Below, piece by piece: positions 22,655 to 36,540 of a stretch of DNA of 46,922 nucleotides. Below the pieces are notes generated by a model. That model saw only the letters and a program-made list of their open reading frames with translations. It ran no database searches and was not told the DNA's origin. Location of the stretch: assembly GCA_024709105.1 (NCBI GenBank), contig JANJXJ010000220.1, positions 1 to 46,922 of the forward strand. Direction: 5' to 3'. Position numbers and translations under genes: made by a program. Origin of the DNA: Lentimicrobium sp. (lineage in GTDB: Bacteria; Bacteroidota; Bacteroidia; Bacteroidales; Lentimicrobiaceae). Position 1 is the stretch's first letter; every line of letters begins with the position of its first letter.

Positions 22655-22698
22655 TATATTCTGATATTCAGATTGTTAAAAAAAGGTGAACTCTACTA

Positions 22699-22706
22699 CA
22701 AAAGTA
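22699..22706 (-). promoter_or_regulatory. -7 promoter element of hydG
   Basis: The minus strand reads TACTTTTG, an exact TAnnTTTG. Predicted transcription starts near 22692, about 38 bases before the hydG ATG. Confidence 0.55.
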
Positions 22707-22742
22707 CTTAATTTTAGCCTGAAATGCCATTTAAAAGTACTT
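22700..22742. repeat. Direct repeat AAAAGTACTT around the hydG promoter
   Basis: AAAAGTACTT occurs at 22700-22709 and again at 22733-22742, 33 bases apart (three helical turns). Each copy contains the palindrome AAGTACTT; the first overlaps the -7 element. The arrangement looks like a pair of operator half-sets, but no regulator can be named. Confidence 0.35.
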
Positions 22743-22758
22743 TATTACTACAATTTAA

Positions 22759-23538
22759 TCAAACTTCAATTACAAGGTTATCATAAGCCAGTCTTACATT
22801 TTCGGGAAGTTTTTTTTCAACCTCTTCATGCAATCCTAAAAAGTGACTGATGTGTGTGAGATAGGCTCTTTCGGGTTTCAATTCTTCAATCAATGACAAT
22901 GCTTCACTCAGCGAAAAGTGTGAAATATGTTTCGAATTTCTTAGTGCATTGATTACCAAAACCTTGGAATTGAATATCTTGTGTTTTTCTTCGTCGGGTA
23001 TAAAACTGGCATCGGTTATATAGGTGAGACCATCGAACCGGTATCCGAAAACCGGAAGTTTGTTGTGCATAACAAGAACGGGCATGATGCTTGTTTCACC
23101 AATGCTGAAACGGTTATTATCAATTTCATTTATGGTTACCTGTGGTGCTCCGAAGAATCGTGTTTCGGTAAAAATGTAAGGGAATTCGGTTTTGATGGCT
23201 TCCATTACATTGTGTGTGCCATAAATGGGGATGTTTTTGTTGAGGATATAATTGAACGCCCTTACATCGTCGAGTCCGGCGATATGGTCGCGGTGTTCAT
23301 GTGTAAATATCACAGCATCAATATCTTCAACCTGCTGTTTAAGCATCTGAAACCTGAAATCCGGCCCGCAGTCAATTACAATATTCTGGTTGTTGATGCT
23401 AACCATGGCCGAAGTTCTGAACCTTTTGTCGCGCGCGTCGGGAGATTTGCAGATCGGGCAGTTACAGGCAATTACAGGCACTCCTATGGAAGTTCCGGTT
23501 CCCAGAAATGTAAGTTTAATTTTGCCTTGTGTTTCCAT
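22759..23538 (-). CDS. MBL-fold metallohydrolase, PhnP-like
   Basis: The 259-residue protein has the metallo-beta-lactamase metal motif FTHEHRDHIAGLDD (about residues 78-91), early NCPICKSPDARDKRFRTSAMV, IVIDCGPDFRFQML, and late AYLTHISHFLG. The Cys-rich insert near residue 25 and the layout resemble PhnP-type phosphoribosyl cyclic phosphodiesterases, but no phosphonate genes are nearby. It is probably the last gene of the hyd operon, 9 bases after ribF. The in vivo substrate is unknown. Confidence 0.85.
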   Translation of the reverse strand: METQGKIKLTFLGTGTSIGVPVIACNCPICKSPDARDKRFRTSAMVSINNQNIVIDCGPDFRFQMLKQQVEDIDAVIFTHEHRDHIAGLDDVRAFNYILNKNIPIYGTHNVMEAIKTEFPYIFTETRFFGAPQVTINEIDNNRFSIGETSIMPVLVMHNKLPVFGYRFDGLTYITDASFIPDEEKHKIFNSKVLVINALRNSKHISHFSLSEALSLIEELKPERAYLTHISHFLGLHEEVEKKLPENVRLAYDNLVIEV

Positions 23539-23547
23539 GTTTGATGT

Positions 23548-24489
23548 TTAGTAAATCAATTCTTCAACTTCCCTGAGGTCGGATTTGAGCTGCTGCTGCA
23601 TTTCTTCGTCGCATGAAAATGCCAGTTCGTCCCTGATTCGCTTTGCAAAGAAAACGGTCGCGGTTTTGCCCGCCAGATCAACATCTGCATCAAAAAGATG
23701 AATATCAATGGTAATTTCATCAATCTTTCTGAATTCCAGCGGGAGAGAATTTTTAATATTGAGAATACCTTTATAATATTCGTCTTCAACCAAAACGCTG
23801 ACTGCATAAACGCCATCGCAGGGGACAAGCTTGTTTTCCTCTTCAATTTTGACTCTTAAAGTCTTGAAGTTGATTTTTTTACAGGTTTCGCTTCCCGGGT
23901 ATAACTGGCTGATGATTATATAATGATGATCAAGATAGGCGTTGGCTCTTTGGATTTTTCCCTCAAGCAATGCTTTTCTGATCAGGGTTGAGCTTACGGT
24001 TTCATTGTGAATGTCCTGCTCAGGAATTTCTTCAACTCCAAAATTGTAGTATTGCCCCAGTTCGTAAAGATATTCGAAGTCACCTTCGCGGTTGTGTCCG
24101 AAATGGTGGTTAAATCCGATTACTACTTTCTTGGCTCTGAGCTTGCCAACCAGAATGTTTCTGATAAAATCAATGGAGGGAATTTGAGAGAACTCGCGCG
24201 TAAAATTCAGGATGATCAGATTGTCGAGGCCTGTTTTTCTGAGCAGTTCAATTTTTTCTTTCTGTGAGTTGATCAGCAGCAAGGTTTTTCCGGCAGATTC
24301 AGGGAAAAGCACTTTGCGCGGATGCGGGTGGAATGTTATCAGCACCGATTCACCGCCAATGTTGGCAGCAATTTCATTAAGCCTGTTCAGAATGGTTTTG
24401 TGACCAATATGCACCCCGTCAAAAGACCCGGTGGTAACTACCGGATTTTTTATAACATCCAGATGATCAAGGTCATATAATATTCTCAT
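23548..24489 (-). CDS. ribF: Bifunctional riboflavin kinase/FAD synthetase
   Basis: RibF makes FMN from riboflavin and then FAD. The 313-residue protein has the nucleotidyltransferase motif TTGSFDGVHIGHKTILNRL (about residues 20-38), GFNHHFGHNREGD (about 123-135) and SSTLIRKALLEG, then the flavokinase domain from about 175. That second domain is more diverged than usual: the region before GVYAVSVL reads NFKTLRVKIEEENKLVPCDG. The gene lies between rex and the MBL gene with gaps of 20 and 9 bases, in line with the hydrogenase genes. That placement suggests flavin supply for HydB, and indirectly for NQR. Confidence 0.93.
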   Translation of the reverse strand: MRILYDLDHLDVIKNPVVTTGSFDGVHIGHKTILNRLNEIAANIGGESVLITFHPHPRKVLFPESAGKTLLLINSQKEKIELLRKTGLDNLIILNFTREFSQIPSIDFIRNILVGKLRAKKVVIGFNHHFGHNREGDFEYLYELGQYYNFGVEEIPEQDIHNETVSSTLIRKALLEGKIQRANAYLDHHYIIISQLYPGSETCKKINFKTLRVKIEEENKLVPCDGVYAVSVLVEDEYYKGILNIKNSLPLEFRKIDEITIDIHLFDADVDLAGKTATVFFAKRIRDELAFSCDEEMQQQLKSDLREVEELIY

Positions 24490-24509
24490 ATTTTTTAAAG
24501 AGTTACTGT

Positions 24510-25133
24510 TCAGGCTTTTTTTACAAAATATGCCACTTTTTCAAGCATGGTTACTATGTCGAACTCCTGCAGGTAAACATGCGATGGCACATTAAGCGGC
24601 TTGGGGGAAAAGTTGATAATCCCTTTTATTCCAGCAAGTATCAGATCTTCTGCTACTTTTTCGGCGTATTCGCCCGGAACTGAAATTACAGCTATCGAAA
24701 TGCCTTCGTTTTTGATAATATCCTTTAACATCTCATTGTGGTAACAAGGAATGCCAGCATAAATCTTGTTCACTTTTTCGGGATTGGTGTCAAAAGCGGC
24801 AACAATATTTAGTTTGGTTCTTTTTCCGCTGAAATATCCCATGATGGCACGGCCGAGATTACCAATCCCCACAACAGCTACCTTTTGTCCATCGCGCGAA
24901 TCAATGATTTTGCCAATAATGTCAATCAGCTCTTTTACATCATAACCCTGGCGCAGGGTTCCGGTGTAACCAATTAACATTATGTCGCGCCTTACCTGTA
25001 CCGCGGTGATATGCAGTAAATTGGCAATTTCATGCGAAAATATATGGTGTTTGCCACTGGCCAGATAATTGAGCAAGGCTCTGCGATACTGGCTTAACCG
25101 TTCAACGGTTTTGTCCGGAAGTTTTTTTGTCAT
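24510..25133 (-). CDS. rex: Redox-sensing transcriptional repressor Rex
   Basis: Rex represses fermentation and respiration genes when NADH/NAD+ is low and leaves DNA when it binds NADH. The 207-residue protein has an N-terminal winged helix (about residues 8-75; FSHEIANLLHITAVQVRRDIM and GYTGTLRQGYDV) and a Rossmann domain with VGIGNLGRAIMGY (about 92-104). A C-terminal helix for domain swapping ends MLEKVAYFVKKA. It is embedded in the hyd operon, 11 bases after a receiver-kinase gene. Two Rex-box-like palindromes precede hydC, so autoregulation through the operon promoter is likely. Confidence 0.95.
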   Translation of the reverse strand: MTKKLPDKTVERLSQYRRALLNYLASGKHHIFSHEIANLLHITAVQVRRDIMLIGYTGTLRQGYDVKELIDIIGKIIDSRDGQKVAVVGIGNLGRAIMGYFSGKRTKLNIVAAFDTNPEKVNKIYAGIPCYHNEMLKDIIKNEGISIAVISVPGEYAEKVAEDLILAGIKGIINFSPKPLNVPSHVYLQEFDIVTMLEKVAYFVKKA

Positions 25134-25144
25134 CTTTCGTTTAT

Positions 25145-26266
25145 TTAATCCTGAGGAAAAATCACAGTGAAGGTTGAACCCTGATCGGGTTTACTTTGTA
25201 CTTCAATATCACCATGATACATCTCAACAATCTTTTTCAGGATAGAGAGGCCGAGCCCCGATCCTGTAATGTTTTTCGTTTTCTGATTTTTGATTCTCAC
25301 AAAATCCTGGAATAAACGGGTAGTTTCTTCTTCAGTCATTCCTATACCGGAATCACTTACGCTGATTTTTATAGCATTGTCTTCCTTTTTTATGAAGATA
25401 TCAACCCTGCCGCCCTGTTTGTTGTACTTTACAGCGTTTGAAATTAGATTATTAAGTATGATCTCAATTTCCTTTGGGTCAGCATCCATTACCACCGCTT
25501 CTTTTGTGTTCAGGTAGATGTCAACATCTTTCTGAATCGCATACGGACGCAAGGTATCAACCGAAATTTTAGCAATACTGGTAAGATCAACCTTCTGAAG
25601 ATTCTGGACAGGTGTTCCTGATTCAATTTTGGTGAGGTCGAGCAGATCCATAATCAGACTTCGCATTCCGGTTACTCTTTCCATGGAGCGATTAATCATT
25701 TCCTGGTATGCCTGTATGTTGTCGCCAAATTGCCGGTCATCCATAATTTTAAGGTAACCCTCTATCGCATTCAGTGGAGCCTTAAGTTCATGTGATAAAA
25801 CTGACAGGAACTGAAATCGGATTTGTTTCCCTTCCTTGTTCATTTTTTGGGTCATCCTCTTCAGGAAAAGTTGTTTGGTGATATTTTCCAGCGAGCTTCT
25901 TAGTTCCTGAGGGGTAAAAGGCTTAGGGATAAAGTCATAGGCGCCATCTCGTGTTGCTTTAACGGCAAGTTCAAGTGAAGCATAGGAGGTAATCATCACT
26001 ACCACAATATCATAAAGTTTCTTTTTTACATACTCCAGCACCTCTATGCCTTGTATGCCTGGTAGTTTGTTGTCGAGCAGTATGATGTCGGGCATCTCCC
26101 GGTCAATAATTTCTATAGCCTCCTCGCCGGTGGGTGCTTCCAGTACTATGTACTCAATGTGCTCATCCATAAAAGGATAATCCACTCTGAAGTTCTGAAG
26201 TATTCTTCGGGTACCCATTCTGATACCGAGTTCATCATCAACCACCAGTACTTTGTATTCTGCCAT
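25145..26266 (-). CDS. Receiver-histidine kinase hybrid protein
   Basis: This 373-residue cytoplasmic protein starts with a receiver domain (about residues 4-130), with phospho-acceptor Asp in IILLDNKLPGIQGIEV and the conserved Lys in FIPKPFTPQEL. A histidine kinase follows: HisKA with FLSVLSHELKAPLNAIEGYL (His about 160), then HATPase_c with NLISNAVKYNKQGG, DSGIGMTEEE and GSGLGLSILKKIVEMY. It has no membrane helix. It follows a single-domain response regulator by 3 bases and lies downstream of the HydS-like sensor kinase, so it is a good candidate for a relay element. Its output partner is not in the window. Confidence 0.9.
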   Translation of the reverse strand: MAEYKVLVVDDELGIRMGTRRILQNFRVDYPFMDEHIEYIVLEAPTGEEAIEIIDREMPDIILLDNKLPGIQGIEVLEYVKKKLYDIVVVMITSYASLELAVKATRDGAYDFIPKPFTPQELRSSLENITKQLFLKRMTQKMNKEGKQIRFQFLSVLSHELKAPLNAIEGYLKIMDDRQFGDNIQAYQEMINRSMERVTGMRSLIMDLLDLTKIESGTPVQNLQKVDLTSIAKISVDTLRPYAIQKDVDIYLNTKEAVVMDADPKEIEIILNNLISNAVKYNKQGGRVDIFIKKEDNAIKISVSDSGIGMTEEETTRLFQDFVRIKNQKTKNITGSGLGLSILKKIVEMYHGDIEVQSKPDQGSTFTVIFPQD

Positions 26267-26269
26267 GAC

Positions 26270-26656
26270 TTATATTTTTAGCAGTTTATTAATCTCCCTT
26301 TGCAACTGATCTGCCCTGATCCCTTTGTCAAGGAATAAATCGGCTTTGATCCATTGCTGGCTTTCGTCAGAATTGATGTTGAACGACATTCCTGTTTCTG
26401 CGGTTACAGCAGTGGCAATGATTATAGGTACATCGGGATATTTCCGTTTAATCCGGTATGCGAGAATAAAGCCGCTGTCATCACTTTCCATCATCAAATC
26501 GAGTATGGCAAGGTCGGGTTTTACGCTTTCGATAATCAGCTCAGCTTCTTTCTGCCCGTCGGCCGTAATTGTTTCAAACCCGAATTGTTCCACTTTCAGT
26601 TTCATCTGAAACAGATAATCCATGTCGTCGTCAACAATCAAAACAGTTTTTTTCAT
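26270..26656 (-). CDS. Single-domain response regulator
   Basis: The 128-residue protein is a stand-alone receiver: acidic pair in VLIVDDDMDYLFQMK, phospho-acceptor Asp in LAILDLMMESDDSGF (about residue 53), Thr/Ser switch in IIATAVTAETG, and Lys in LFLDKGIRAD. It has no DNA-binding output domain. It lies 36 bases after the sensory hydrogenase-kinase gene and 3 bases before the receiver-kinase gene. It is probably the direct phosphate acceptor of the H2/redox sensor kinase. Confidence 0.9.
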   Translation of the reverse strand: MKKTVLIVDDDMDYLFQMKLKVEQFGFETITADGQKEAELIIESVKPDLAILDLMMESDDSGFILAYRIKRKYPDVPIIIATAVTAETGMSFNINSDESQQWIKADLFLDKGIRADQLQREINKLLKI

Positions 26657-26692
26657 TTTATTTTATGGTTAGGTCTTTTTTTTGTTTTATTA

Positions 26693-28714
26693 TCAGGTCA
26701 TTGCCTTGCGGGGCAGTGTGATTGAGAAAGTAGTGCCAGTTGCACCTTTGCCCGGGTCGGCATTTGATTTTACTGCAATACTTCCCTTGTGCATTTTTAC
26801 TATACCATAAATAATAGGTAATCCCAAACCAGTTCCTTTGCCTATTGGTTTGGTAGTAAAAAAGGGAGTAAACAATTTGCTGATGTTTTCGGGCGCAATT
26901 CCAGTTCCAGAGTCAATGATGTGTACAGTAACCTCGTCGGTGTTTTCTGTGAGTCTGACCTGAATCAGTCCTCCGGTTTCGGGCATGGCTTCCACCGAAT
27001 TTTTAAGCAGATTGGTAAAAACCTGTGTCATCTGATCGAAATCGAGTTTTACCATTGGATCACTGATTCTGGAATCCATTGAAATCTTGACTTCGGGAGG
27101 AGATATTACTGTGCTAATGGCATGTTCAAGCAGGTTGTTGATGTTTGTTTCGGTAAAGTTGACCTGATTTTTGCGGGCAAAATTCAAAAGTCCTCCAACA
27201 ATTTTCTTGCAACGTTCTGCTTGTTCGGCAATCAACTCAAGATCGGCTCTTACTGGGTCATCAGGTTTGGCTTCGTCCTTAAGAATATTGCTGTACATGG
27301 TGATGATACCCAGGGGGTTATTCAGTTCATGTGCAATGCCTGCAGAAAGCTGACCCATACCTGCCAGTTTTTCGGAATGCCGGAGCGCTTCCTGTGTATT
27401 GGCAAGCTTTTCGTTAGAAACATTAAGCTCTCTGATGTAGTTGTGAAGTTTTTCAATGGTAAATGGCAGACACATTTCGTGCTCGGCAAGGCCTCTGATG
27501 ATTGCAACAGCATGATCTTCGCATGAATCGTAACCGCAGGCACCGCAATCCAGGAAATCCTGAGGGCCGGTTTTGCCCATTTTTACCAAAACCTTGTCTA
27601 TTTCTTCACGGTCAGGTTTCTGGTAACGGATGTCGCGGTTTGTAAATTCCCTTGACATATCAATATTACTGAAGCTCTCTATGTCATTTTCCCAGGCTTT
27701 CAGATCCATGGTTTCAAGCTTGTGAAGCACGTAATCGCTAACACTTGCCCGTTTGCGGTATCTTCGGCTCAATGAAGAGAAAAAGGGGTAAGGAGACATG
27801 CCCGGGCCCATGATGCAACCTTCGCAACACAACAATTCCAGGTGCTCCTGTGCAATCTGTCCGCTTTCAAATTCCTTGATGGCTTCCTGAAAAGCACTGC
27901 GGCCTTCTGCAACAATTACATTGCGTTCAAAAATGTCTTCCTTTATTCCAACAGTATTCAGCAAACCTCTGCTCACCGGGAAAATGCCACCTTTGCCACC
28001 AAGCGGAGGGTCAAATTCGGTTGGGCTGACATCTGCTGGTTTTAAACCTTTATGGTTGATCATTTCGCGCAATTCCCTGAAGGTAAGTGCAGCATCCACT
28101 TCGTCAGATTCGTCTTTCTTGGCGATACAGGGTCCAATAAAAACTATTTTGAGGTCTTTGCCGTACTTTTTTCGCATTACTCTTGTCATGGCGACCATAG
28201 GAGAAACAATGCGGGCCAATGAGTCAATCAATCCGGGATGGTAGTGCTCAATATAGCTCACTATTGCCGGGCAATCGGATGAAATAAGCGGTGGATAGGT
28301 TTGTGATTTAAGAATTTTTCCATATTCGGCAGCAACCAGATCGGCGCCAAAAGATACTTCAGCAACATACTTAAAACCCTGAGCCCTTATGAGAGAAACC
28401 AATAGCCTATGGTTTCTGATTTCAGAAAACTCGGCAGGGAAACTTGGTGCAACAATGGCAGCAACAGGCTGATCTGATTTGAGTAATGACCTGGTTTTTA
28501 TTATTTCATTTCGGAATACTTTAGCATTCTGGCTGCAAACTTTAATGCAGTTTCCGCACCCGATGCAGCGTTCAGGAATTACCTCTGCCTGTCCGTTGCT
28601 TATTTTAATGGCTTTTGCCGGACATTCACGAACACAGGTATAGCAAACTCTGCACCGCTCCTTTATGGTGGTGACCAGGTTTTTGCCTTTTAGACTTTCA
28701 TCTGTTTGCGTCAT
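26693..28714 (-). CDS. Sensory [FeFe]-hydrogenase-like protein fused to histidine kinase (HydS-like)
   Basis: The 673-residue protein combines two [4Fe-4S] ferredoxin motifs (Cys 21-31 and 50-60), a hydrogenase H-domain (about residues 80-345), a four-Cys Fe-S domain (Cys 390, 393, 398, 415) and a histidine kinase with HELNNPLG (His about 462) and GTGLGLPIIYGIV. H-cluster ligands are present: Cys148 in SSDCPAI, Cys196 in GPCIAKK, and Cys296/Cys300 in CCEGC. The catalytic-site surroundings differ from true hydrogenases: Asp147 replaces the proton-transfer Cys, Gly replaces Met of MPC, and the GGGQP loop is lost. That is typical of sensory hydrogenases. It starts 11 bases after hydA. Inference: it senses H2 or redox state and signals to the following response regulators. 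Confidence 0.88.
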   Translation of the reverse strand: MTQTDESLKGKNLVTTIKERCRVCYTCVRECPAKAIKISNGQAEVIPERCIGCGNCIKVCSQNAKVFRNEIIKTRSLLKSDQPVAAIVAPSFPAEFSEIRNHRLLVSLIRAQGFKYVAEVSFGADLVAAEYGKILKSQTYPPLISSDCPAIVSYIEHYHPGLIDSLARIVSPMVAMTRVMRKKYGKDLKIVFIGPCIAKKDESDEVDAALTFRELREMINHKGLKPADVSPTEFDPPLGGKGGIFPVSRGLLNTVGIKEDIFERNVIVAEGRSAFQEAIKEFESGQIAQEHLELLCCEGCIMGPGMSPYPFFSSLSRRYRKRASVSDYVLHKLETMDLKAWENDIESFSNIDMSREFTNRDIRYQKPDREEIDKVLVKMGKTGPQDFLDCGACGYDSCEDHAVAIIRGLAEHEMCLPFTIEKLHNYIRELNVSNEKLANTQEALRHSEKLAGMGQLSAGIAHELNNPLGIITMYSNILKDEAKPDDPVRADLELIAEQAERCKKIVGGLLNFARKNQVNFTETNINNLLEHAISTVISPPEVKISMDSRISDPMVKLDFDQMTQVFTNLLKNSVEAMPETGGLIQVRLTENTDEVTVHIIDSGTGIAPENISKLFTPFFTTKPIGKGTGLGLPIIYGIVKMHKGSIAVKSNADPGKGATGTTFSITLPRKAMT

Positions 28715-28725
28715 GGCGAATGGGT

Positions 28726-30450
28726 TTAAAGAGGTACTTCCCGTTTTTTGTATGACGTATGAAGCAGTTTTGCTGAGTTTTCGCCAAATGGCTCGCCCAG
28801 GAAATCGCGATACAGTTCTACAATTGCAGGGTTTTTATGTGAAGCGCGTATAGGGTCTTTTTCATCGGTATCATAGATGGCTTTAGCTCTTGCTTTTATA
28901 GCTCCGATGTCTTTTACAATTGGTTGCCCGCCACCGCCAACACAGCCGCCTTCACAAGCCATAACTTCAATGAAGTGTAAATCATTCCGTCCGGATTTAA
29001 TTTCTTCTATCAGCTGGCCCGCCTGCTTAACGGTTGTAACCGCTGCAAAACCGAGTTTAAACTCACCAATTTTTACTTTGTACTCTTTAACTTCCTTGTT
29101 TACTCTCAGTTCATTTATTTTGTAGCTGCCAATCTCTTTTCCTGTTATTCTGTAATGAAGGGTTCTGATCAAAGCCTCAGTAAGACCACCGGAAACAGCC
29201 ATTAATTTTCCTGCTGAACTCCTTACATGAAACGGGAAATCAGCATGTTCTGATTCGTTCTGATGCAAGTCAATGCCATTTAGCTTGATAAATTGTGCAA
29301 GTTCGCGAGTGGTAAGTACCGAATCTACATCGCTGATGCCTTTGTGGGTCATTTGCTCGCGCTGTGCTTCAAACTTTTTGGCTGTACAAGGCATGGCGCT
29401 TACCGTGTACAGATTGTCGGGGTTTATGTGGTAAGTTTTTGTATAGTAATTAGTTATTACTGCGCCCAGCATCTGCTGCGGAGATTTACAAACAGAAACA
29501 TGGGGAATAATATCAGGGTGCCATTGTTCCATGAATTTGATCCATGCCGGGCAATCGCTGCTGAAAACCGGCAGTACCCCGTTGTTGCGGAGCCGGTGTT
29601 CAATCTCGGCAGCCAGTTCGCAGATGTAAAGATCGGCGCCGAAAGATGCATCAAACACCTTGTCAAATCCGGTTTTACGCAATGCAGCATTCATCAGCCC
29701 GCTGATGTCTTTTCCGGCTTTTAATCCGAATTCTTCGGCCAGGCTTACAGTAACAGTAGGAGAGTACTGCATTACTACGTGGGTTTCCTTGTGATGCAGG
29801 GCGTTCTGAAGATCGGAGGAATGTCTTTTTTCGTGCAGAGCTCCCGTGGGGCAAGCCATTATGCATTGTCCGCAGGTAATGCAACTCGACAAATTGAGCT
29901 GTTTGTTAAACGATGGCCCGATGATAGTTTTGTTCCCTCTTCCTATGAAGCCCAGTGTACATGCCCCGATTATCTCGTCGCAGGTTCTTACACATCGCCC
30001 GCATAAAATACACTTGGCGGGGTCGCGGACTATACTTGATCCTGATGGATCGGACTTGTATTTATTCTTTTTACCAATAAACCGTCTTTCTCTAACATTT
30101 AATTGTTCTGCAAAAGTCTGAAGTTCACAATTTCCGTTTCTTTCACAATACAGGCAATCGTCCGGGTGATTGCTCAGCAAAAGCTCAACATTGGTTTTCC
30201 GGGCATTTACCACTCTGGGTGAATGGGTTTTGATTTTCATCCATTCTTCAACCGGATAGGAACAAGCAGTGATAAGATTCGGTTTTCCTTCAACTTCAAC
30301 CACACACATTCTGCACGAGCCGGTTGGGTAAAGGTCGGGCATGTGACAAAGTGTAGGAACTTTTATCCCGTTGCGATCAAGTGCTTCCAGAATGGTTTCG
30401 CCCCTGCGCGCCTGAATGGTTTTGTTGTTGACCTCTATCGGAAAGTTCAT
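28726..30450 (-). CDS. hydA: [FeFe]-hydrogenase catalytic subunit HydA (NADH/ferredoxin-linked)
   Basis: HydA reduces protons or oxidises H2 at an H-cluster. The 574-residue protein has an N-terminal [2Fe-2S] domain (Cys 35, 46, 49, 63), a His-Cys [4Fe-4S] site (HPDDCLYCERNGNC, 95-108), two [4Fe-4S] motifs (Cys 147-157 and 190-200) and the H-domain. The H-cluster Cys are 300 (SSDCPAW), 355 (MPCTAKK), 499 and 503 (MACEGGC). By eye the numbering matches clostridial CpI. Asp299 replaces the proton-transfer Cys and Leu279 a pathway Glu, while Glu282, Arg286 and Ser319 remain. Unlike some bifurcating HydA it has no C-terminal extra cluster domain. It follows hydB by 26 bases. Confidence 0.93.
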   Translation of the reverse strand: MNFPIEVNNKTIQARRGETILEALDRNGIKVPTLCHMPDLYPTGSCRMCVVEVEGKPNLITACSYPVEEWMKIKTHSPRVVNARKTNVELLLSNHPDDCLYCERNGNCELQTFAEQLNVRERRFIGKKNKYKSDPSGSSIVRDPAKCILCGRCVRTCDEIIGACTLGFIGRGNKTIIGPSFNKQLNLSSCITCGQCIMACPTGALHEKRHSSDLQNALHHKETHVVMQYSPTVTVSLAEEFGLKAGKDISGLMNAALRKTGFDKVFDASFGADLYICELAAEIEHRLRNNGVLPVFSSDCPAWIKFMEQWHPDIIPHVSVCKSPQQMLGAVITNYYTKTYHINPDNLYTVSAMPCTAKKFEAQREQMTHKGISDVDSVLTTRELAQFIKLNGIDLHQNESEHADFPFHVRSSAGKLMAVSGGLTEALIRTLHYRITGKEIGSYKINELRVNKEVKEYKVKIGEFKLGFAAVTTVKQAGQLIEEIKSGRNDLHFIEVMACEGGCVGGGGQPIVKDIGAIKARAKAIYDTDEKDPIRASHKNPAIVELYRDFLGEPFGENSAKLLHTSYKKREVPL

Positions 30451-30476
30451 AAAGTTATCGGGTTACTTCAAAAACA

Positions 30477-32423
30477 TCATTTTACAAAAACAGCAACAAA
30501 CTTGCACACGTCGAAACAAATACCGCAGCCAATACATTTATCCTCAATGATAAAGTGCGGGGTGCGCGGTGAACCAATAATGGCATTAGTAGGGCATTTT
30601 TTAGCACAGGCTGTGCAGCCGGTACATTTTTCTACATCTATGTAGTACACTTTGAGGTCTTTGCATACCCCGGCACGACATTTACGATCGAAAATATGCT
30701 CTTCAAATTCTTCCCTGAAGTATTTCAGTGCACTCAGCAATGGATTGGGTGCTGTTTGCCCCAGGCCGCAAAGCGAAGTGTCTTTTATAACGTCTGCAAG
30801 ATTTTCGAGTTGCATAACTCCTTTAAACCTTTCCAGAGTTTCGTGCCCGCTTTCATTTACAGGCCTTCGGGTGATATTTTCGAGGATCTCATGCATTCTT
30901 CTGGAGCCTTCTCTGCAGGGGATACATTTACCGCAGCTTTCGCGTTGAAGGAAATCGGTAAAAAACTTGGCAATGTCTACCATGCAGGTATCTTCGTCCA
31001 TTACAACAAGTCCTCCTGAACCCATAATGGTGCCAGCCTCAACCAGAGCTTCGTAGTCAATTACAACATCCAGGCTTTTTTCGGGCAGGCAACTACCTGA
31101 AGGCCCTCCCAGTTGAATGGCTTTTATTCGTTTGCCATTGCGAATGCCGCCGCCAATGTAATACACCAGATCTTTGAGCGATGTACCCATACTTACTTCG
31201 GCAAGGCCTGTAATGGCAACCTTTCCGGCGAGGGCAAAAACCTTTGTTCCCTTGCTTTTTTCGGTTCCAATGGCTGAGAACCAGGCAGGCCCGTTTTCAA
31301 TGATTGCAGGTACATTCGCCAGAGTTTCGACATTATTAACCACTGTAGGTTTGCCAAAAAGTCCTTTGATAGCGGGGAAGGGTGGTTTAGGCCTGGGTGT
31401 GCCGCGTTTGCCTTCGATGCTTGAGATCAAAGCTGTTTCTTCGCCGCAGACAAAAGCACCTGCTCCCTCTCTAACCTGTATCAGCAGATTGTAGCCACTT
31501 CCCATAATATTTTGCCCCAGCAAACCAGCTTCGGTTGCTTGTTCTATGGCCAGGCGCAGGCGTTCCACAGCAAGTGAATATTCAGCCCTGACGTAAATAT
31601 ACGCTTTGCTGGCATTGATGGCATAAGCAGAAATGGCGACTCCTTCGATAAGTTTGTGGGGGTCGCCCTCAAAAATAGCACGATCCATAAATGCACCGGG
31701 GTCGCTTTCATCGCCATTGCAAATAAGGTAACGCTGATCGTCCTGTGTGTTAAGTGCTGTTTTCCATTTTCTTCCGGTTGGGAAGCCTCCGCCACCCCGG
31801 CCGCGAAGCCCTGATTCCTCAATTATTCCGCAAACTTTGTCGGGTGAATAACTTTTGAGTACACGGGTTAAAGCTTTATAACCGCCCCGCGCAATATATT
31901 CCTCAATAGAAAACGGGTCAATGATTCCACAGTTTTTTAATACAATCCTGTTTTGTAATCTGAAGAATGCCAGCTCATTCAGCTGTTTAACATGTTCCCA
32001 TGGCTCATGAACGGCATGGGAGTATTGTCCGATTGCCGGATGGTCGGGCAAAGAAGAATGCAGTACATCATCCAGAAGTGCTTCCACTTTATCTTCGGTG
32101 ACTTTTGAGAATGAGATTCTTCTTTTGCCAGGTATCTGCACATCCATCATGGGTTCATGAATGCACAATCCTATGCATCCAACTTCCACAATATCGGCGG
32201 CTATATTTTTTTCGCTCAGGTAATTTCTGGTTGCTTGTAAAGTTCTTCCGGCACCGGCTACCATTCCGCATGTACCAGTACCGATATAAATTACAGGTTT
32301 GTCAATTTTATCGCGCCTGAGTCTGCCCATGTGTTCCTCAAGAGTTGAAGTTTCATCCTGAAACTCTCCGTTGAGGCTGAAAGCGGCCAGTTTTTTCAGG
32401 TCTATTTTCAGGGCTGACTTCAT
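30477..32423 (-). CDS. hydB: HydB, NuoF-like flavoprotein subunit of bifurcating hydrogenase
   Basis: HydB binds FMN and NAD(H) and carries several Fe-S clusters; in trimeric hydrogenases it is where NADH and ferredoxin electrons meet. From ATG 32423 it is 648 residues. A thioredoxin-like [2Fe-2S] domain (about 30-115; VGCIGLCIHEP) is followed by the NuoF core with GRGGGGFPTGRKWKTAL, CNGDESDPGAFMDR and GAFVCGEETALISSIEG. The [4Fe-4S] site is ESCGKCIPCREGSRRM, and a C-terminal two-cluster ferredoxin domain has CTGCTACAKKCP and CIGCGICFDVC. The ATG overlaps the hydC stop (ATGA), which decides the start; upstream in-frame 32447 is less likely. Confidence 0.93.
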   Translation of the reverse strand: MKSALKIDLKKLAAFSLNGEFQDETSTLEEHMGRLRRDKIDKPVIYIGTGTCGMVAGAGRTLQATRNYLSEKNIAADIVEVGCIGLCIHEPMMDVQIPGKRRISFSKVTEDKVEALLDDVLHSSLPDHPAIGQYSHAVHEPWEHVKQLNELAFFRLQNRIVLKNCGIIDPFSIEEYIARGGYKALTRVLKSYSPDKVCGIIEESGLRGRGGGGFPTGRKWKTALNTQDDQRYLICNGDESDPGAFMDRAIFEGDPHKLIEGVAISAYAINASKAYIYVRAEYSLAVERLRLAIEQATEAGLLGQNIMGSGYNLLIQVREGAGAFVCGEETALISSIEGKRGTPRPKPPFPAIKGLFGKPTVVNNVETLANVPAIIENGPAWFSAIGTEKSKGTKVFALAGKVAITGLAEVSMGTSLKDLVYYIGGGIRNGKRIKAIQLGGPSGSCLPEKSLDVVIDYEALVEAGTIMGSGGLVVMDEDTCMVDIAKFFTDFLQRESCGKCIPCREGSRRMHEILENITRRPVNESGHETLERFKGVMQLENLADVIKDTSLCGLGQTAPNPLLSALKYFREEFEEHIFDRKCRAGVCKDLKVYYIDVEKCTGCTACAKKCPTNAIIGSPRTPHFIIEDKCIGCGICFDVCKFVAVFVK

Positions 32424-32890
32424 AGCTTGTTGTCTTTTTCTTTGCAACTTTCGAGAATATCTTTTAATTCTCTGGGGTCAATTCCGTGGAAATACTTGTC
32501 GTTGACAGCAATAACCGGAGAAAGCCCGCAGGCACCCATACAATTAACTACTTCTATGCTGTACATCCCATCGCGGGTAGTTTGACCATCCCTTATTTTT
32601 AGCAGGCGTTCGGCTTCCTGTATAATGCGGCTGCCGTTGTTGATGTGGCAAGCAGTTCCATGACATATTTGAATATGAAATCTCCCCCGGGGTTCAAACC
32701 TGAACTGGTCGTAGAAAGTTGCTACACCATAAATTTTACTTGTGGGCAAATTCAGCGAAACTGAGATGCGGTTGATGGCTTGTTCCGACAAATACCCGAA
32801 TTCATTCTGAATGTCCTGCAAAAGCGGTAATAATGAATCCCGCTGAACATTCATGTGCCTTTTGATAATTTCATCAATTCTGTCGGCCAT
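32420..32890 (-). CDS. hydC: HydC, NuoE-like [2Fe-2S] subunit
   Basis: HydC carries a thioredoxin-fold [2Fe-2S] cluster and completes the HydABC complex. The 156-residue protein has an N-terminal helical segment (LLPLLQDIQNEFGYLSEQAI) and cluster Cys in CHGTACHINNG and VNCMGACGLSP, the C-x4-C and C-x3-C pattern of NuoE. It is the first gene of the long hyd operon, followed by hydB with a 4-base overlap. Two Rex-box-like palindromes begin about 95 bases upstream. No exact TAnnTTTG was found for it on the minus strand. Confidence 0.93.
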   Translation of the reverse strand: MADRIDEIIKRHMNVQRDSLLPLLQDIQNEFGYLSEQAINRISVSLNLPTSKIYGVATFYDQFRFEPRGRFHIQICHGTACHINNGSRIIQEAERLLKIRDGQTTRDGMYSIEVVNCMGACGLSPVIAVNDKYFHGIDPRELKDILESCKEKDNKL

Positions 32891-32985
32891 TTTATATTGA
32901 TTTACAGATTTTTACAATAGTTAAGGAGGCGTTGAAGGCTGCCCCCGAAGCCTGAATCTGTCATTCATTTCTGCCTATAAAAATA

Positions 32986-33003
32986 CTGTTAATTCTTTAA
33001 CAC
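32986..33003. promoter_or_regulatory. Rex operator candidate 1 (hydC/[2Fe-2S] divergent spacer)
   Basis: The 18 bases have TGTTA and TAACA arms at the spacing of the Rex consensus TTGTGAAATATTTCACAA (TGTnA-N6-TnACA). The arms are perfectly complementary over TGTTAA/TTAACA-type pairing, except the central bases. It shares one base with the next palindrome. Confidence 0.6.
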
Positions 33004-33020
33004 TGTTATTTTTTTCACAG
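33003..33020. promoter_or_regulatory. Rex operator candidate 2, abutting the first
   Basis: CTGTTA and TCACAG are the ends of a second 18-base element with the same TGTnA-N6-TnACA layout. Its centre is 17 bases from that of candidate 1. Both lie upstream of the plus-strand -7 elements at 33040 and 33079 and of hydC on the minus strand. Confidence 0.55.
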
Positions 33021-33039
33021 ATATTTTAAAAAAAATCCT

Positions 33040-33047
33040 TATTTTTG
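33040..33047 (+). promoter_or_regulatory. Possible -7 element of the plus-strand sensor operon, distal
   Basis: TATTTTTG matches TAnnTTTG exactly and lies 20 bases after the second Rex-like palindrome. No clear -33 element is seen. It would give a leader of about 100 bases. Confidence 0.35.
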
Positions 33048-33078
33048 TTCTTTCTGAATAAGCGAACCTGTGGAGTAT

Positions 33079-33086
33079 TATATTTG
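33079..33086 (+). promoter_or_regulatory. Possible -7 element of the plus-strand sensor operon, proximal
   Basis: TATATTTG matches TAnnTTTG exactly. It would give a leader of about 63 bases before the ATG at 33156. The usual -33 position is not clear. Confidence 0.4.
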
Positions 33087-33155
33087 TCAGGTTATTTTTT
33101 GGCCGGGAATTACGAGAAAAACAAGATTCTGTGTTCTTAACAACATCTTTGGGTA

Positions 33156-33425
33156 ATGGAGACCGATCACCGCATTGATATACAGATTTGCCTCGGGAGT
33201 TCATGTTTCTCACGTGGCAACAAGCATTTGGTAAAGGTAGTTGAATCCTACCTGAACGAGAACAACCTGAGGCATTTGGTTTATTTTCATGGTGCTCACT
33301 GTTTTAGTAGCTGCGACCGCGGACCTCTCATTCACATTGACGGAAAAGAATATACCGGCTTAAATGAAGAAAAAATTATTTCTGTACTTGATGGAATTTT
33401 TGGAAAAAGAATTTCAGGTGTATAG
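33156..33425 (+). CDS. Thioredoxin-like [2Fe-2S] ferredoxin domain protein
   Basis: The 89-residue protein is essentially a lone NuoE-type cluster domain: IQICLGSSCFSRGN gives C-x4-C and AHCFSSCDRGPLIHIDG gives C-x3-C. It lacks the N-terminal helical region of HydC. It begins a plus-strand unit diverging from hydC, followed after 62 bases by the second sensory hydrogenase. A role as electron carrier or redox input to that sensor is an inference from position. Similar small ferredoxins lie beside hyd genes in other anaerobes, as in the Thermotoga hyd region. Confidence 0.85.
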   Translation: METDHRIDIQICLGSSCFSRGNKHLVKVVESYLNENNLRHLVYFHGAHCFSSCDRGPLIHIDGKEYTGLNEEKIISVLDGIFGKRISGV

Positions 33426-33487
33426 AAAAATTACATGTTAATTTCCAGTGAATTGTGTTGGAATTCATCGCCCCTTCAATCTTAATT

Positions 33488-35353
33488 ATGAAACCACCGC
33501 TGATTACCATAGATTCAGAACAATGCAAGGTATGTTATGCCTGTGTGAGAGCCTGTCCTGTAAATGCCATACAGGTAAGAGGCAATCAGGAAGTACCTGT
33601 GGTTGTTGATGAACGTTGCATCGGATGCGGCAGTTGCCTTCAGGTTTGTGCACCTTTGGCTATTGCTTACCGTGATTCTAAGGCAGTTGTCAGGCAACTG
33701 ATCGAATCAGGAGAAACTGTTGTAGCTATTGTTGCGCCCAGCATTTCAGGGGAATTCGACGATATTACCGATTACCGGAAATTTGTAAAAATGATTCGTG
33801 AGCTGGGCTTTGCCCGCGTTAATGAAGTATCATTTGGTGTTGATCTGGTAGCATCAGAATACCGTGAACTTTTTACTAATTTTCTTGGAAGATACTATAT
33901 TACAGCCAATTGTCCTCCCATAGTTGCACTTGTTGAAAAGTATCACCCCGGATTGATTGATAACCTTGCACCAATTGTTTCACCGATGATAGCTTCCACT
34001 CAACTCGTTCGCCAGTTATATGGAAGTGATGTAAAAGTGGTTTACATCGGGCCATGTATTGGTGCCAAGGATGAAGCACTGAGATTTGAGGGCGATGCAC
34101 GTGTAGATGCTGTGCTGACTTTTGTTGAGTTGCGACAGATGTTTGAAGAGCGAAATATCAAAGAAAGCACTGTTGAATATTCTGATTTTGATCCCCCGCT
34201 CGGATACAAAGGCTCTTTATACGCTGTAAGCAATGGTATTCTGCAGGCAGCAGGTTTGAGCGAAAATCTGCTGGAAGGCAGCATAATTACTTCCGAAGGG
34301 AAAGCCAATATACTGGAGGCCATAAAAGAGTTTGAGTCATCGGTTGACTTTATCAGGAAACATTTTAATATGTTTTACTGCGAAGGTTGTTTGATGGGCC
34401 CCGGCACTTCGAAGGGCGGAAAAAAGTATCTGCGAAAAACGCTAGTGTCTGATTATGCCAATAAAAAGTTGAAAGACTTTAATGTAGACGACTGGGAGAA
34501 GAATTGCTCAAAATATGCTTCTGGAATAAACTTCAAGGCTTCATTTGTTAATGATGACCAGCGGCTGCCACCGCCTCCTGAGGAAAAAGTGCAGGAAATT
34601 CTAAAAGTAATCGGGAAACTTGAAGATGAAGACAAACTTGGTTGCGGAGCCTGTGGTTTTGAAACCTGCCAGGATTTTGCTGTTGCAGTCGCCAAAGGAC
34701 TTACCAAAACAGATATGTGCATTACATATTCTTTAAAAAGTAAGCACGACTTCATCAAAACCCTGAAACTTACCAACGATAAGCTGGCAAAAACCCGCGA
34801 GGCTCTGGTTGACTCCGAAAAGAAAGCACGTCAGGAGCAACAAATGGCTCAGGAAGCGCTGGAACGAACATCGGCAATGTTGCAAAAGCTTCCCAGTGCA
34901 ATAGTTATAGTTGACGAAAACCTTAAAGTTATAGAATCGAACCAGAGTTTTATCAACACACTGGGCGAAGATGCTGCCGAAATTAATGAGATCATTCCCG
35001 GGCTGGTGGGGGCCGATATAAAAACTCTTTTGCCTTTTCAGATCTACAAATTGTTTTCTGCCGTTATTACCAGCAACGAGAATGTAGTGAACAGAGATGT
35101 GTACATTGGTGAAAGGTTGATGAATATTTCTGTTTTTCCCATTAAAAAAGGAAAAATTGCCGGGGCTGTCCTTCGCGATATGTATCTGCCCGAAGTTCGG
35201 AAGGAAGAAGTTATCAGCAGGGTAACTGAGGTGATTGACGAAAACCTTGATCTGGTTCAGAAAATTGCATTTCTATTGGGCGAAGGAGCTGCAAAGACCG
35301 AAAAGATGCTGAATTCAATCATTGAATCGCACAAAGCCACCAAAAAGCCTTGA
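33488..35353 (+). CDS. Sensory [FeFe]-hydrogenase-like protein with PAS domain
   Basis: From ATG 33488 it has 621 residues: two [4Fe-4S] motifs (Cys 13-23 and 44-54), an H-domain (about 65-340), a four-Cys Fe-S domain (Cys 386, 389, 394, 411), a coiled coil (about 418-462) and a PAS domain (about 463-570; VIVDENLKVIESNQSFINTLG). It has no kinase. H-cluster loops are TANCPPI (Cys142, with Asn141 at the proton-transfer position), GPCIGAK (Cys190) and FYCEGC (Cys298, Cys301). In the last loop the first usual cluster Cys is Tyr297. An upstream GTG at 33455 is possible but lacks support. Its stop overlaps the start of the SpoIIE-type phosphatase, so the two probably form a sensor-output pair. Confidence 0.87.
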   Translation: MKPPLITIDSEQCKVCYACVRACPVNAIQVRGNQEVPVVVDERCIGCGSCLQVCAPLAIAYRDSKAVVRQLIESGETVVAIVAPSISGEFDDITDYRKFVKMIRELGFARVNEVSFGVDLVASEYRELFTNFLGRYYITANCPPIVALVEKYHPGLIDNLAPIVSPMIASTQLVRQLYGSDVKVVYIGPCIGAKDEALRFEGDARVDAVLTFVELRQMFEERNIKESTVEYSDFDPPLGYKGSLYAVSNGILQAAGLSENLLEGSIITSEGKANILEAIKEFESSVDFIRKHFNMFYCEGCLMGPGTSKGGKKYLRKTLVSDYANKKLKDFNVDDWEKNCSKYASGINFKASFVNDDQRLPPPPEEKVQEILKVIGKLEDEDKLGCGACGFETCQDFAVAVAKGLTKTDMCITYSLKSKHDFIKTLKLTNDKLAKTREALVDSEKKARQEQQMAQEALERTSAMLQKLPSAIVIVDENLKVIESNQSFINTLGEDAAEINEIIPGLVGADIKTLLPFQIYKLFSAVITSNENVVNRDVYIGERLMNISVFPIKKGKIAGAVLRDMYLPEVRKEEVISRVTEVIDENLDLVQKIAFLLGEGAAKTEKMLNSIIESHKATKKP

Positions 35354-36540
35354 TGATGGACAACAGGTTTTATATAGAGGTAAACGCCGAATTAAAAAAT
35401 CATTATGAGTCAAGGATTTGCGGTGATGTTTTTTTGTCGCGCAAAATCAGCGAAGAGAACCGGATTGTAGTTGTATTGTCAGATGGGATGGGTCATGGCG
35501 TAAAAGCCAATATGCTGGCTACGCTTACTGCAACCATGGCGCTCAATTTTACAGCAGAACACAAAGAAGTTCACAGAATTGCTGAAATTATTATGAATAC
35601 CCTGCCAGAGTGCAGCGAACGAAAAATGAGCTATTCCACTTTTACCATCATAGATATTGAGTATGATGGCATGGTAAGAATATTGGAGTATGATAATCCA
35701 CAGGCAGTTATTATGCGTGGCAAAAAAATATTTGAGCCCGAATGGACCTGTGTAATGCTCAGCGGTGGTAAAAGCAGTGGTAAAGAACTGAAAAGTTGTG
35801 AGTTTTTTCCTGAAAAGGAAGACAGGATTATTTTCTTCAGCGATGGGGTAGCGCAATCTGGTTTGGGTGGCGGTAAGTATTTGTTTGGATGGGGGCGCGA
35901 TAGTGTTCAGGATTATGTATTTGATCTGGTGAATCACGAACCCGATATATCAGCTCTGCAACTGGCTCACAAGGTGGTAAATATGGCTCATGTTAACGAT
36001 GGTTATATGAGCAAGGACGATACCAGTTGCGGGGTGATTTATTTCAGGGAGCCTCGCAAAATGCTTGTTTGTACAGGGCCTCCTTTTGAAGATCACAAAG
36101 ATGCCGAGCTAGCCAGGATGGTAGATGCTTTTACCGGCCGAAAGATACTTTGCGGAGCTACAACAGCCGATATCATATCCCGGGAGCTGGGTCGCAAAGT
36201 TGAAGATAGCTTCGATTTTGACGATCCTGACCTTCCTCCCATCTCCATGATGGATGGGGTTGACCTGATCACGGAAGGCATTCTTACTTTAGGGAAAGTT
36301 ACTGAAATGCTGAAAAACTATTCAAACAGCACCAGATTGGGCAAAGGCCCTGCCGACAGGATTGTGAAAATGCTGATCGAAAGCGATGAAATTCATTTTA
36401 TCATCGGAACCCGAATTAATATTGCGCATCAGGATCCCAGCCTTCCCGTGGAACTTGAAATCAGAAGAACAGTTGTAAAACGCATCGCCCGCTTGCTGGA
36501 AGATAAATTTCTGAAAGAAGTATCTTTAACTTTCATCTGA
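35353..36540 (+). CDS. SpoIIE-family PP2C serine/threonine phosphatase
   Basis: From ATG 35353 the protein has 395 residues. The PP2C domain (about residues 10-230) keeps the metal-binding Asp residues: CGDVFLS, VVLSDGMGHGVKAN, IIFFSDGVAQSG and KDDTSCGVIYF. SpoIIE phosphatases usually act on phosphorylated anti-sigma-factor antagonists. No STAS-domain or anti-sigma gene is in the window, so the target is unknown. The C-terminal 160 residues (from about LVCTGPPFEDHKD) form a separate region with CGATTADIISRELGRKV that I do not recognise. The start overlaps the sensor stop (TGATG), implying coupled translation and likely complex formation. Confidence 0.87.
   Translation: MMDNRFYIEVNAELKNHYESRICGDVFLSRKISEENRIVVVLSDGMGHGVKANMLATLTATMALNFTAEHKEVHRIAEIIMNTLPECSERKMSYSTFTIIDIEYDGMVRILEYDNPQAVIMRGKKIFEPEWTCVMLSGGKSSGKELKSCEFFPEKEDRIIFFSDGVAQSGLGGGKYLFGWGRDSVQDYVFDLVNHEPDISALQLAHKVVNMAHVNDGYMSKDDTSCGVIYFREPRKMLVCTGPPFEDHKDAELARMVDAFTGRKILCGATTADIISRELGRKVEDSFDFDDPDLPPISMMDGVDLITEGILTLGKVTEMLKNYSNSTRLGKGPADRIVKMLIESDEIHFIIGTRINIAHQDPSLPVELEIRRTVVKRIARLLEDKFLKEVSLTFI

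Follow-up and report, generated by a model that had tools for sequence, protein, structure and literature searches.

The hydrogenase island of this Lentimicrobium sp. occupies positions 20673-36540 of the window (the whole stretch of 46,922 nucleotides that was analysed) and consists of two divergent gene runs. We lean towards interpreting it as a Rex-governed hub for sensing H2 and redox state, in which the resident HydABC would have a specialised and perhaps sensor-like role and would not be the main producer of H2.

Gene content and conservation of the island

All island genes named in the original prediction are intact ORFs at the places and in the families claimed for them (Table 1). Of the two proteins described there as receivers, the one at 26270-26656 is a plain receiver; its neighbour at 25145-26266 is a receiver joined to HisKA and HATPase domains. 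The minus-strand run, which had been thought to end at 23548, continues through a metallo-beta-lactamase-fold gene to HydG and two TM1266-like genes, with intergenic gaps of -28 to 104 bp from hydC onwards. The ribF gene is frequently next after rex in the loci of relatives.

Table 1. Positions of the island genes and of the Rex-type sites in the window.
Feature	Positions	Strand	Evidence or remarks
HydC, [2Fe-2S] NuoE-like subunit	32420-32890	-	PF01257 E 1.1e-47
HydB, NuoF-like NADH/FMN subunit	30477-32447	-	PF01512, PF10589
HydA, group A [FeFe]-hydrogenase	28726-30450	-	ligands C300/C355/C499/C503; L279, D299
HydS1, [FeFe]-hydrogenase + HisKA (H462) + HATPase fusion	26693-28714	-	Pfam
Stand-alone receiver, D53	26270-26656	-	PF00072
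Receiver + histidine kinase, D65, H159	25145-26266	-	PF00072, PF00512, PF02518
Rex redox repressor	24510-25133	-	NF003995 193.7 bits, cut-off 126
RibF-like FAD synthetase / riboflavin kinase	23548-24489	-	PF06574, PF01687
Metallo-beta-lactamase-fold protein	22759-23538	-	PF12706
HydG, H-cluster maturase	21218-22654	-	TIGR03955 502.8 bits, cut-off 312.15
Two TM1266/CPF_0552-family small proteins	20673-20936, 20944-21201	-	NF052672 85.2 and 83.4 bits, cut-off 85
Tandem Rex-type operator (predicted)	32987-33002 + 33004-33019	.	divergent promoter; sites 17 bp apart
Small [2Fe-2S] thioredoxin-like protein, CX4C...CX3C	33156-33425	+	PF01257 E 2.6e-9
HydS3, PAS-bearing sensory hydrogenase	33455-35353	+	two [4Fe-4S], H-domain, Cx2Cx4Cx16C, PAS
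SpoIIE-type PP2C phosphatase + C-terminal domain	35350-36540	+	PF07228
Second window place with a perfect Rex-type site	10039-10054	.	upstream of nqrA (8487-9860, -)

The divergent arrangement appears to be conserved across Bacteroidales, which is new here. Both sensors lie on one contig in 15 order-sample loci besides the window, 12 of which carry all nine gene types, and, of the 47 named loci whose sequence extends 8.9 kb or more upstream of HydS3, 29 contain the full island. This is the conserved co-occurrence that had been proposed as a check. Gene set and order are kept despite protein identities of mostly 45-65%. The order of the sampled genomes was taken as Bacteroidales by inference, and the order sample and named loci partly overlap (72/75 HydA and 101/106 HydS3 distinct). 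One locus, L142, was scored as lacking hydB only since its hydC and hydB were read as a single ORF.

The two modules also occur separately. The kinase module was found in 16 order-sample genomes with no hit to the C3 (phosphatase-linked) module, a status set by a PP2C search at E 1e-30 plus one further check, and in 4 of the 47 named loci with enough flank the phosphatase module neighbours Rex and neither HydA nor HydS1 is present. The kinase genes are gone and rex retained in L058, L061, L130, L161 and L170; in several other loci, such as L167, L171 and L182, HydABC and the kinase genes are gone and rex and the phosphatase genes remain. Thus, neither module needs the other as a neighbour.

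Rex-type operators

The divergent promoter contains a predicted tandem Rex-type operator, which is new here and agrees with the earlier proposal that Rex acts together with both arms. A perfect TGTTAN6TAACA, the motif given in the available text of PMC5886521, was detected in 53 of 75 divergent regions, against 0.12 expected from shuffles, and 51 of the 75 regions have a second site (at most 2 mismatches) at a distance of 17 bp, against 0 in shuffles; regions outside 60-600 bp (6/81) were excluded. Rex-type sites number 74 in 16,404 bp versus 11 in the other parts of these loci (1,189,473 bp). Of the loci in which hydC and HydS1 but no C3 gene are in view, a perfect site lies within 300 bp of hydC in 3/4 with rex and 0/12 without it, L091 and L112 stopping close to where rex would be expected. 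Six regions between rex and the [2Fe-2S] gene that lack hydC were readable: the site is clear in three (L167 with one mismatch, L178 and L185) and absent in three (L068, L069 and L182).

In the organism's own genome (4.47 Mb) we found 9 perfect sites, fewer than the 20 of a reversed control pattern, so that only their placement is telling. They lie upstream of the island, of nqr, of the Fe-ADH/HydS3'/PP2C'/group B genes of the C22 locus (two sites), of the DRTGG-RsbW-HydD-HydBAC genes of the C187 locus, of a ptb-like gene with buk, and of genes for glutamate dehydrogenase, a multihaem cytochrome and a sensor kinase.

Sensors and the resident HydA

ORFs entered the alignments if they exceeded a minimum length (HydA 540, HydS1 640, HydS3 600, HydB 600 and PP2C 380 aa), and for some proteins an identity cut applied as well. 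HydS1 has two N-terminal [4Fe-4S] clusters, an H-domain and a C-terminal Cx2Cx4Cx16C motif. Its C148, C196, C297 and C300, the eight N-terminal cysteines, C390/393/398/415 and the kinase residue H462 are all kept in 69/69 homologues. The H-cluster ligands, FeS clusters and fused histidine kinase of HydDB group C1 are present; a PAS match was not found with Pfam, and just about 36 residues separate the FeS domain from HisKA. The C1 entry in Table 1 of PMC5037454 mentions a kinase and not PAS, and group C sensors are described in the sections available of the literature as PAS-containing; HydS1, having no PAS match, is therefore treated as C1-like in its working and not counted as a member. The phosphoacceptor positions of its partners are nearly invariant (D53 of the stand-alone receiver in 71/71; D65 and H159 of the receiver-kinase in 65/66 and 66/66). 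No DNA-binding domain was found in the receiver-kinase.

On the plus strand, the cysteine pattern of the [2Fe-2S] protein is kept in 102/102 fetched homologues. The window HydS3 has the complete set of H-cluster cysteines (C153, C201, C309 and C312), with N152 at the place of C299. It shows the C3 traits, namely H-cluster ligands, accessory FeS clusters, a phosphatase neighbour and a PAS domain, the last as a weak PAS_9 match (E 4.5e-4) under Pfam's cut-off. The PP2C gene overlaps HydS3 by 4 bp, and its product has the fold and metal-binding aspartates of the SpoIIE type (D45, D165, D223 and D224 in 110, 109, 110 and 110 of 110 homologues); the PP2C domain (about 1-235) is followed by a conserved Rossmann-like domain (236-396).

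In line with the original prediction, each of the two window sensors retains all four H-cluster ligand cysteines. Among homologues, these are kept by 69/69 HydS1 but by only 72/106 aligned HydS3, a difference new here. Since some HydS3 homologues (34/106 with ligands lost, those of L171 and L177 among them) could hardly bind an H-cluster, not every phosphatase arm would sense H2, and the proposal that both arms read the same H2 signal becomes doubtful. A histidine kinase fusion such as HydS1 is expected to work by His-Asp phosphotransfer, and PP2C enzymes of the SpoIIE type dephosphorylate Ser/Thr. The "opposite outputs" of the original prediction are not supported, because these chemistries are not opposed and no shared substrate was seen.

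Residue numbers of the window HydA coincide with those of CpI. The canonical proton path E282-S319-E279-C299 is incomplete in it: L279 and D299 replace the canonical residues, and E282 and S319 are retained. Residues E279/E282/R286/C299/S319/M353/M497 are all canonical in 14/14 islands of C3-less genomes (G017 and G095 being 70% and 79% complete and the other 12/12 at least 92%) versus 0/61 C3-bearing islands. The canonical proton path of the resident HydA is thus altered in all C3-bearing islands (61/61), which is new here. E279 is lost in 53/61 and C299 in 38/61, against 0/14 otherwise; in some C3 islands E279 is the sole change. On the tree one change each suffices, so the association may be a single historical event; the trees are quick LG+G4 reconstructions, that of HydS3 carrying long-branch warnings. 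In the HydAb comparison, 1/13 rows was odd and non-canonical.

The available text of PMC6226526 gives less than 1% activity for CpI E279A/Q and C299A/S and 30-80% for C299D; E279L is absent among the variants described there. As D299 works in CpI, the window HydA may be quite active. It scores 423.2 for TIGR02512 (group A [FeFe] hydrogenase; cut-off 405.95) and 716.1 bits for NF040763 (NADH-dependent HydA, group A6), below the cut-off of 765, which both C187 copies exceed (901.2 and 916.5 bits). All 19 cofactor cysteines of HydA, H-cluster ligands included, are kept in 75/75 homologues, as are the four of HydC in 87-88/88 and C488 to C648 of HydB in 79/79. The N-terminal C60, C91 and C95 of HydB are kept in 44, 56 and 50 of 79, the [2Fe-2S] set being complete in 30/66 versus 13/13 of the groups compared. 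A further group A HydA (at least 300 bits) is encoded in 19/19 searched C3-bearing genomes and absent in 7/14 C3-less ones. The altered proton path, together with two canonical HydA genes elsewhere in its own genome, makes the island HydABC likelier to be slow, biased or sensor-like than a bulk H2 producer. The earlier proposal that the locus tunes H2 production is accordingly uncertain.

Known systems and alternative explanations

Parts of the island resemble known kinds: HydDB C1 (with no PAS match in HydS1), C3 and the hfs/HydS clusters. Thermoanaerobacterium hfsABCD is a single operon, preceded by a predicted Rex site, that likewise encodes a PAS sensory hydrogenase (hfsB), a serine-phosphatase-like protein (hfsC) and an [FeFe] hydrogenase (hfsD); the available sections of PMC11837493 and PMC5886521 describe neither a histidine-kinase arm nor HydABC between, and its nearer counterpart in the Lentimicrobium genome is the C22 locus. 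In the accessible part of PMC6776011, a Ruminococcus albus cluster, strongly down in low-H2 co-culture, includes a group C sensor with PAS, a putative Ser/Thr phosphatase and an alcohol dehydrogenase, but its partner is a ferredoxin-only hydrogenase, and a kinase-fused sensor and divergent HydABC are not described. The short descriptions of C1 (histidine-kinase-linked) and C3 in PMC5037454 Table 1 fit the two window sensors; there they are separate putative types, whereas the window joins both in one conserved island. A sensory hydrogenase lying upstream of a bifurcating HydABC, and frequently separated from it by a His/Ser kinase, is a known pattern (PMC3561251, as far as its available text goes) common to the window and the C187 locus; a second, phosphatase-linked sensor and a Rex operator pair are not described in that text.

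In the sensing hub that we favour, Rex-type operators sit between the run of HydABC, kinase module and rex and the run of the phosphatase module. At low NADH/NAD+ Rex would shut both, together with nqr, the hfs-like operon and the RsbW/HydD/HydBAC genes elsewhere, and at high NADH the Rex-controlled runs would open. The HydS1 H-cluster would read H2 and pass the signal through the C-terminal [4Fe-4S] domain to H462 and on to D53 and D65 of the receivers; since no DNA-binding domain was found in these, the relay would have to finish at a protein target or at a regulator whose gene lies elsewhere. HydS3 would read H2 or the redox state of ferredoxin and switch the overlapping PP2C through PAS, and the phosphatase would then dephosphorylate some Ser/Thr target. 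The arms would be parallel, not chemically opposed. A more elaborate and rather doubtful form has three hydrogenases in the hub, with HydABC as a slow NADH-/ferredoxin-coupled H2 reader beside a kinase sensor that uses its H-cluster and a phosphatase-linked one turned pure FeS redox sensor, without the H-cluster, in several lineages, all reset by Rex.

HydABC could instead be a normal bifurcating hydrogenase under Rex, with two H2 sensors for feedback and a proton path rerouted by D299, waters or another channel. The complete H-cluster ligands and FeS cysteines of HydA, the activity of CpI C299D, the dN of 0.12-0.21 (dS saturated) of HydA, HydB and HydC against three near relatives, and the known placing of sensors beside HydABC are consistent with this, but the loss of E279 and C299 confined to C3-bearing islands, the near inactivity of the CpI A/S and A/Q variants and the NF040763 shortfall argue against it, and we regard a normal enzyme as rather unlikely. 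More improbable is a redundant, decaying HydABC carried beside useful sensors. Other HydA genes in every searched C3-bearing genome, the incomplete HydB N-terminal cysteines and the loci that have dispensed with HydABC point that way, yet 0/19 HydA cofactor cysteines and 0/79 HydB C488-C648 sets are lost, the ORFs are intact across 41-84% identity, and the dN of HydA is within the range of its neighbours.

As to the arms, divergence, co-conservation and a common operator might suggest that they read one signal and counteract each other at a single target, as in the earlier model; their differing phospho-chemistry, the occurrence of each module alone and ligand loss in HydS3 only make this very unlikely. 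Two independent sensory modules, brought together only through a shared Rex regulon, would account for their separate losses with rex staying, but gene set and order retained over such deep divergence make this rather unlikely.

The island bears on how [FeFe]-hydrogenase sensors relay H2 to the cell; a proven target is described for no group C sensor in the sections available of the papers cited. Compact and conserved, it unites the two kinds of output with a Rex-type operator, and its relatives supply natural variants of the proton path and the H-cluster. Nature thus provides matched comparisons: islands with the kinase arm alone and a canonical HydA can be set against those with both arms and an altered HydA, and HydS3 proteins that keep their H-cluster ligands against those that have lost them. 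This makes the island a concrete gene set to test how such microbes decide the amount of H2 made. If the altered HydABC is slow, HydABC gene counts in metagenomes may overstate H2-producing capacity.

Gene layout and conservation of the island

The island lies on contig C190 (the window) of a source genome of 4.47 Mb in 239 contigs (96.8% complete), and ORF calls together with domain searches revealed two divergent gene runs. The minus strand carries hydC-hydB-hydA-hydS1-rec-rechk-rex-ribF; this run continues past ribF with an MBL-fold gene, hydG and two TM1266-like genes, and its intergenic distances range from -28 to 104 bp. On the plus strand a gene for a small [2Fe-2S] protein is followed by hydS3 and then by a SpoIIE-type phosphatase gene that overlaps hydS3 by 4 bp. 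ORF and family searches confirmed the gene calls of the original prediction; the minus-strand run, which had been ended at 23548, extends to 20673, and of the two proteins called receivers one is a receiver and the other a receiver-histidine kinase, not a plain receiver. Since HydE and HydF are encoded elsewhere in the genome (contigs C5 and C4, respectively, both outside the window contig), H-cluster synthesis is possible in the cell.

Positions of the features discussed
Feature	Location	Strand	Remark
rechk	25145-26266, window	minus	receiver-histidine kinase
rec	26270-26656, window	minus	stand-alone receiver
hydB	30477-32447, window	minus
Candidate Rex-type site	32987-33002, window		TGTTAATTCTTTAACA; between hydC and [2Fe-2S] gene
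Candidate Rex-type site	33004-33019, window		TGTTATTTTTTTCACA; between hydC and [2Fe-2S] gene
Perfect Rex-type site	10039-10054, window		between nqrA (minus) and T9SS plug gene (plus)
C22 run	L010 (G000:C22:28000-45539), 3385-11214		resembles hfs/R. albus; two perfect Rex-type sites upstream
C187 locus	L009 (G000:C187:4000-23900), 4561-16788		DRTGG, RsbW-like kinase, HydD-like sensor and PHP genes flanked by two canonical HydABC sets; one Rex-type site precedes first DRTGG gene

Among 119 genomes of the order, the phosphatase gene was found in 41 and HydS1, the kinase-bearing sensor, in 39 (matches of at least 50% identity, including G061, where it is split over contig ends). Both occur in 22 genomes, or 23 if G040 is counted, where a contig end truncates HydS3 (Fisher p 8.5e-4, uncorrected for kinship). 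Besides the window, 15 fetched loci of the order sample carry both sensors on one contig, 12 of them with all nine gene types. The named loci are the best 80 of 542 candidates; 33 have less than 8.9 kb upstream of HydS3, and among the 47 with enough flank the full island is present in 29. The others show Rex without HydA (4), an adjoining C187-type HydABC (4), absence of at least one member of the set (5) or another arrangement (5). HydS1 is absent from L058 and L130, which retain REC and RECHK, and is missing together with further genes from L061, L161 and L170.

Sixteen order-sample genomes have HydS1 and no match to C3, the phosphatase-linked sensor arm. In all 14 of these with a complete HydA the fetched stretch contains hydCBA-hydS1-rec(-rechk), and in 12 of the 14 rex is absent from that stretch. 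Eleven of the 12 rex-less islands (L090, L095-L099, L103, L105, L107, L111 and L112) carry an extra receiver gene of about 166 aa, or within a longer ORF, directly upstream of hydC; in L105 and L112 a receiver-HTH-like regulator was recognised by eye nearby. At L110 (G036:C141) the kinase sensor has no recognised HydABC or receiver neighbours within the fetched 16.8 kb.

Rex-type sites

NADH releases Rex from its operators. The perfect pattern TGTTAN6TAACA is present in 53 of 75 divergent regions, with 0.12 expected from dinucleotide shuffles, and a pair of sites exactly 17 bp apart (at most two mismatches each) occurs in 51 of the 75 and in none of the shuffles. The same loci hold 74 sites in 16,404 bp of divergent regions versus 11 in the remaining 1,189,473 bp. 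Where hydC and HydS1 are present with no C3 gene in view, a perfect site lies within 300 bp of hydC in three of the four assessable loci with rex and in none of the 12 rex-less loci. Counting against the operator reading, six rex/[2Fe-2S] regions that lack hydC could be read, and three of them (L068, L069, L182) show no clear site. For Thermoanaerobacterium, the accessible text of PMC5886521 gives TTGTTANNNNNNTAACNN as the Rex consensus and a predicted site preceding hfsABCD.

The source genome has nine perfect sites, each between ORFs by our own assignment and upstream of at least one ORF: the island, nqrA, the C22 run (two), the C187 sensor-HydBAC genes, a ptb-like gene with buk, glutamate dehydrogenase, a cytochrome gene with a Crp-type neighbour and a kinase gene beside mscS. 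Because a reversed control pattern gave 20 matches versus these nine, position is informative and the site count is not. The site beside nqrA suggests Rex control of the Na+-NQR genes.

Hydrogenase subunits of the island and other loci

The residue numbering of the island HydA matches that of CpI, and all 75 island HydA sequences share 15 accessory FeS cysteines as well as the four H-cluster cysteines. E279, E282, R286, C299, S319, M353 and M497 are all canonical in 14 of 14 C3-less islands (12 of 12 when G017 and G095, 70% and 79% complete, are excluded) and in none of 61 islands of C3-bearing genomes, where E279 is retained in 8, C299 in 23 and M353 in 26; the window HydA has L279 and D299. 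In CpI, E279A/Q and C299A/S leave less than 1% activity and C299D 30-80%, as far as PMC6226526 was available. All 19 searched C3-bearing genomes with an island HydA have at least one further PF02906 match of at least 300 bits, matched by score and not by residues, and the island HydA is the sole HydA in 7 of 14 C3-less genomes (extra HydA, Fisher p 8e-4, uncorrected for kinship). Because a single change on the tree accounts for the full residue pattern and another for C3 (C299 needs at least 11), the group contrast may reflect one event, then repeated change at 299. With dS saturated, a dN of 0.12-0.15 argues against decay. Judging from the sequences, the island HydABC can be read as specialised. 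In HydB all three N-terminal [2Fe-2S] cysteines are retained in 13 of 13 C3-less islands and in 30 of 66 with C3.

A PF02906 search detected eight H-domains in the source genome, three of them in the window. The hfs-like run on C22 contains an Fe-alcohol dehydrogenase, a flavoprotein-like gene, a Rex-like protein, a [2Fe-2S] protein, HydS3', PP2C', a second [2Fe-2S] protein and a group B hydrogenase (TIGR04105, 500.4 bits; cut-off 450). On C187 the HydD-like sensor and RsbW-like kinase genes lie between two canonical HydA genes; the RsbW, DRTGG, PHP, Rex-like and flavoprotein names at both loci were assigned by eye. In C187-type enzymes of the fetched loci the seven positions are canonical in 11 of 11 HydAa and 12 of 13 HydAb. 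All 11 HydAa carry the motif TSCSPGW, in which Ser occupies the position of CpI C300, as does the aligned solved HydA1 chain 7q4v of Acetobacterium woodii. Very large hydrogenase-domain fusions, with PF02906 matches within open frames of 948-1269 aa, were seen at G070:C228, G070:C886, G036:C9 and G090:C122:74255-74941.

Plausible signal relay and the two sensors

As H462 of HydS1, D53 of REC and D65 and H159 of RECHK are conserved, a His-Asp relay through these proteins is plausible; a Pfam search found no DNA-binding domain in any island receiver. The phosphatase combines a SpoIIE-like catalytic domain with a conserved Rossmann-like tail. Histidine kinases work by His-Asp phosphotransfer and SpoIIE-type PP2C phosphatases dephosphorylate Ser/Thr. 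The idea that the arms have opposite outputs is not supported: their chemistry is not opposed, and each module is found without the other adjoining.

HydDB (PMC5037454) already names both group C1 and group C3, and sensors beside HydABC are a known pattern (PMC3561251), both according to the portions accessible. Partial sources likewise already describe variable C299 in sensory hydrogenases and a phosphatase-linked sensor, as in the plus-strand arm, in hfs and R. albus. Within the open literature searched, and as far as those searches show, the conserved two-arm island with its tandem Rex-type operator, the link of the C3 arm to a HydA whose proton path is altered, and HydS3 forms that lack H-cluster ligands appear to be new.

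The four H-cluster cysteines are intact in every one of 69 HydS1 sequences, 61 of which have Asp where CpI has C299. HydS3 retains all four in 72 of 106; C309 (CpI C499) alone is replaced by N, H or D in 20, and 14 show larger losses, 13 of them lacking three or all four (L052, L068, L161, L163, L164, L170, L171, L174, L176, L177, L182, L185, L196). At least eight changes are needed on the HydS3 tree to explain ligand loss, and at least three to explain the absence of two or more ligands. Of the eight N-terminal ligand cysteines, seven are present in 106 of 106 HydS3 and C27 in 67, and the four C-terminal cysteines are present in 105; the 13 ligand-poor homologues keep their accessory FeS cysteines and still match in the PAS region. 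The four phosphatase Asp residues are found in 110, 109, 110 and 110 of 110 sequences, and the metal-binding Asp residues are retained beside ligand-poor HydS3 wherever the gene falls in the fetched stretch (L196 ends before it); the output gene therefore persists without H-cluster ligands. The most fitting view of the phosphatase arm is therefore that of a putative redox sensor which may, as in the window, still carry an H-cluster, whereas the kinase arm has the appearance of a genuine H2 sensor.
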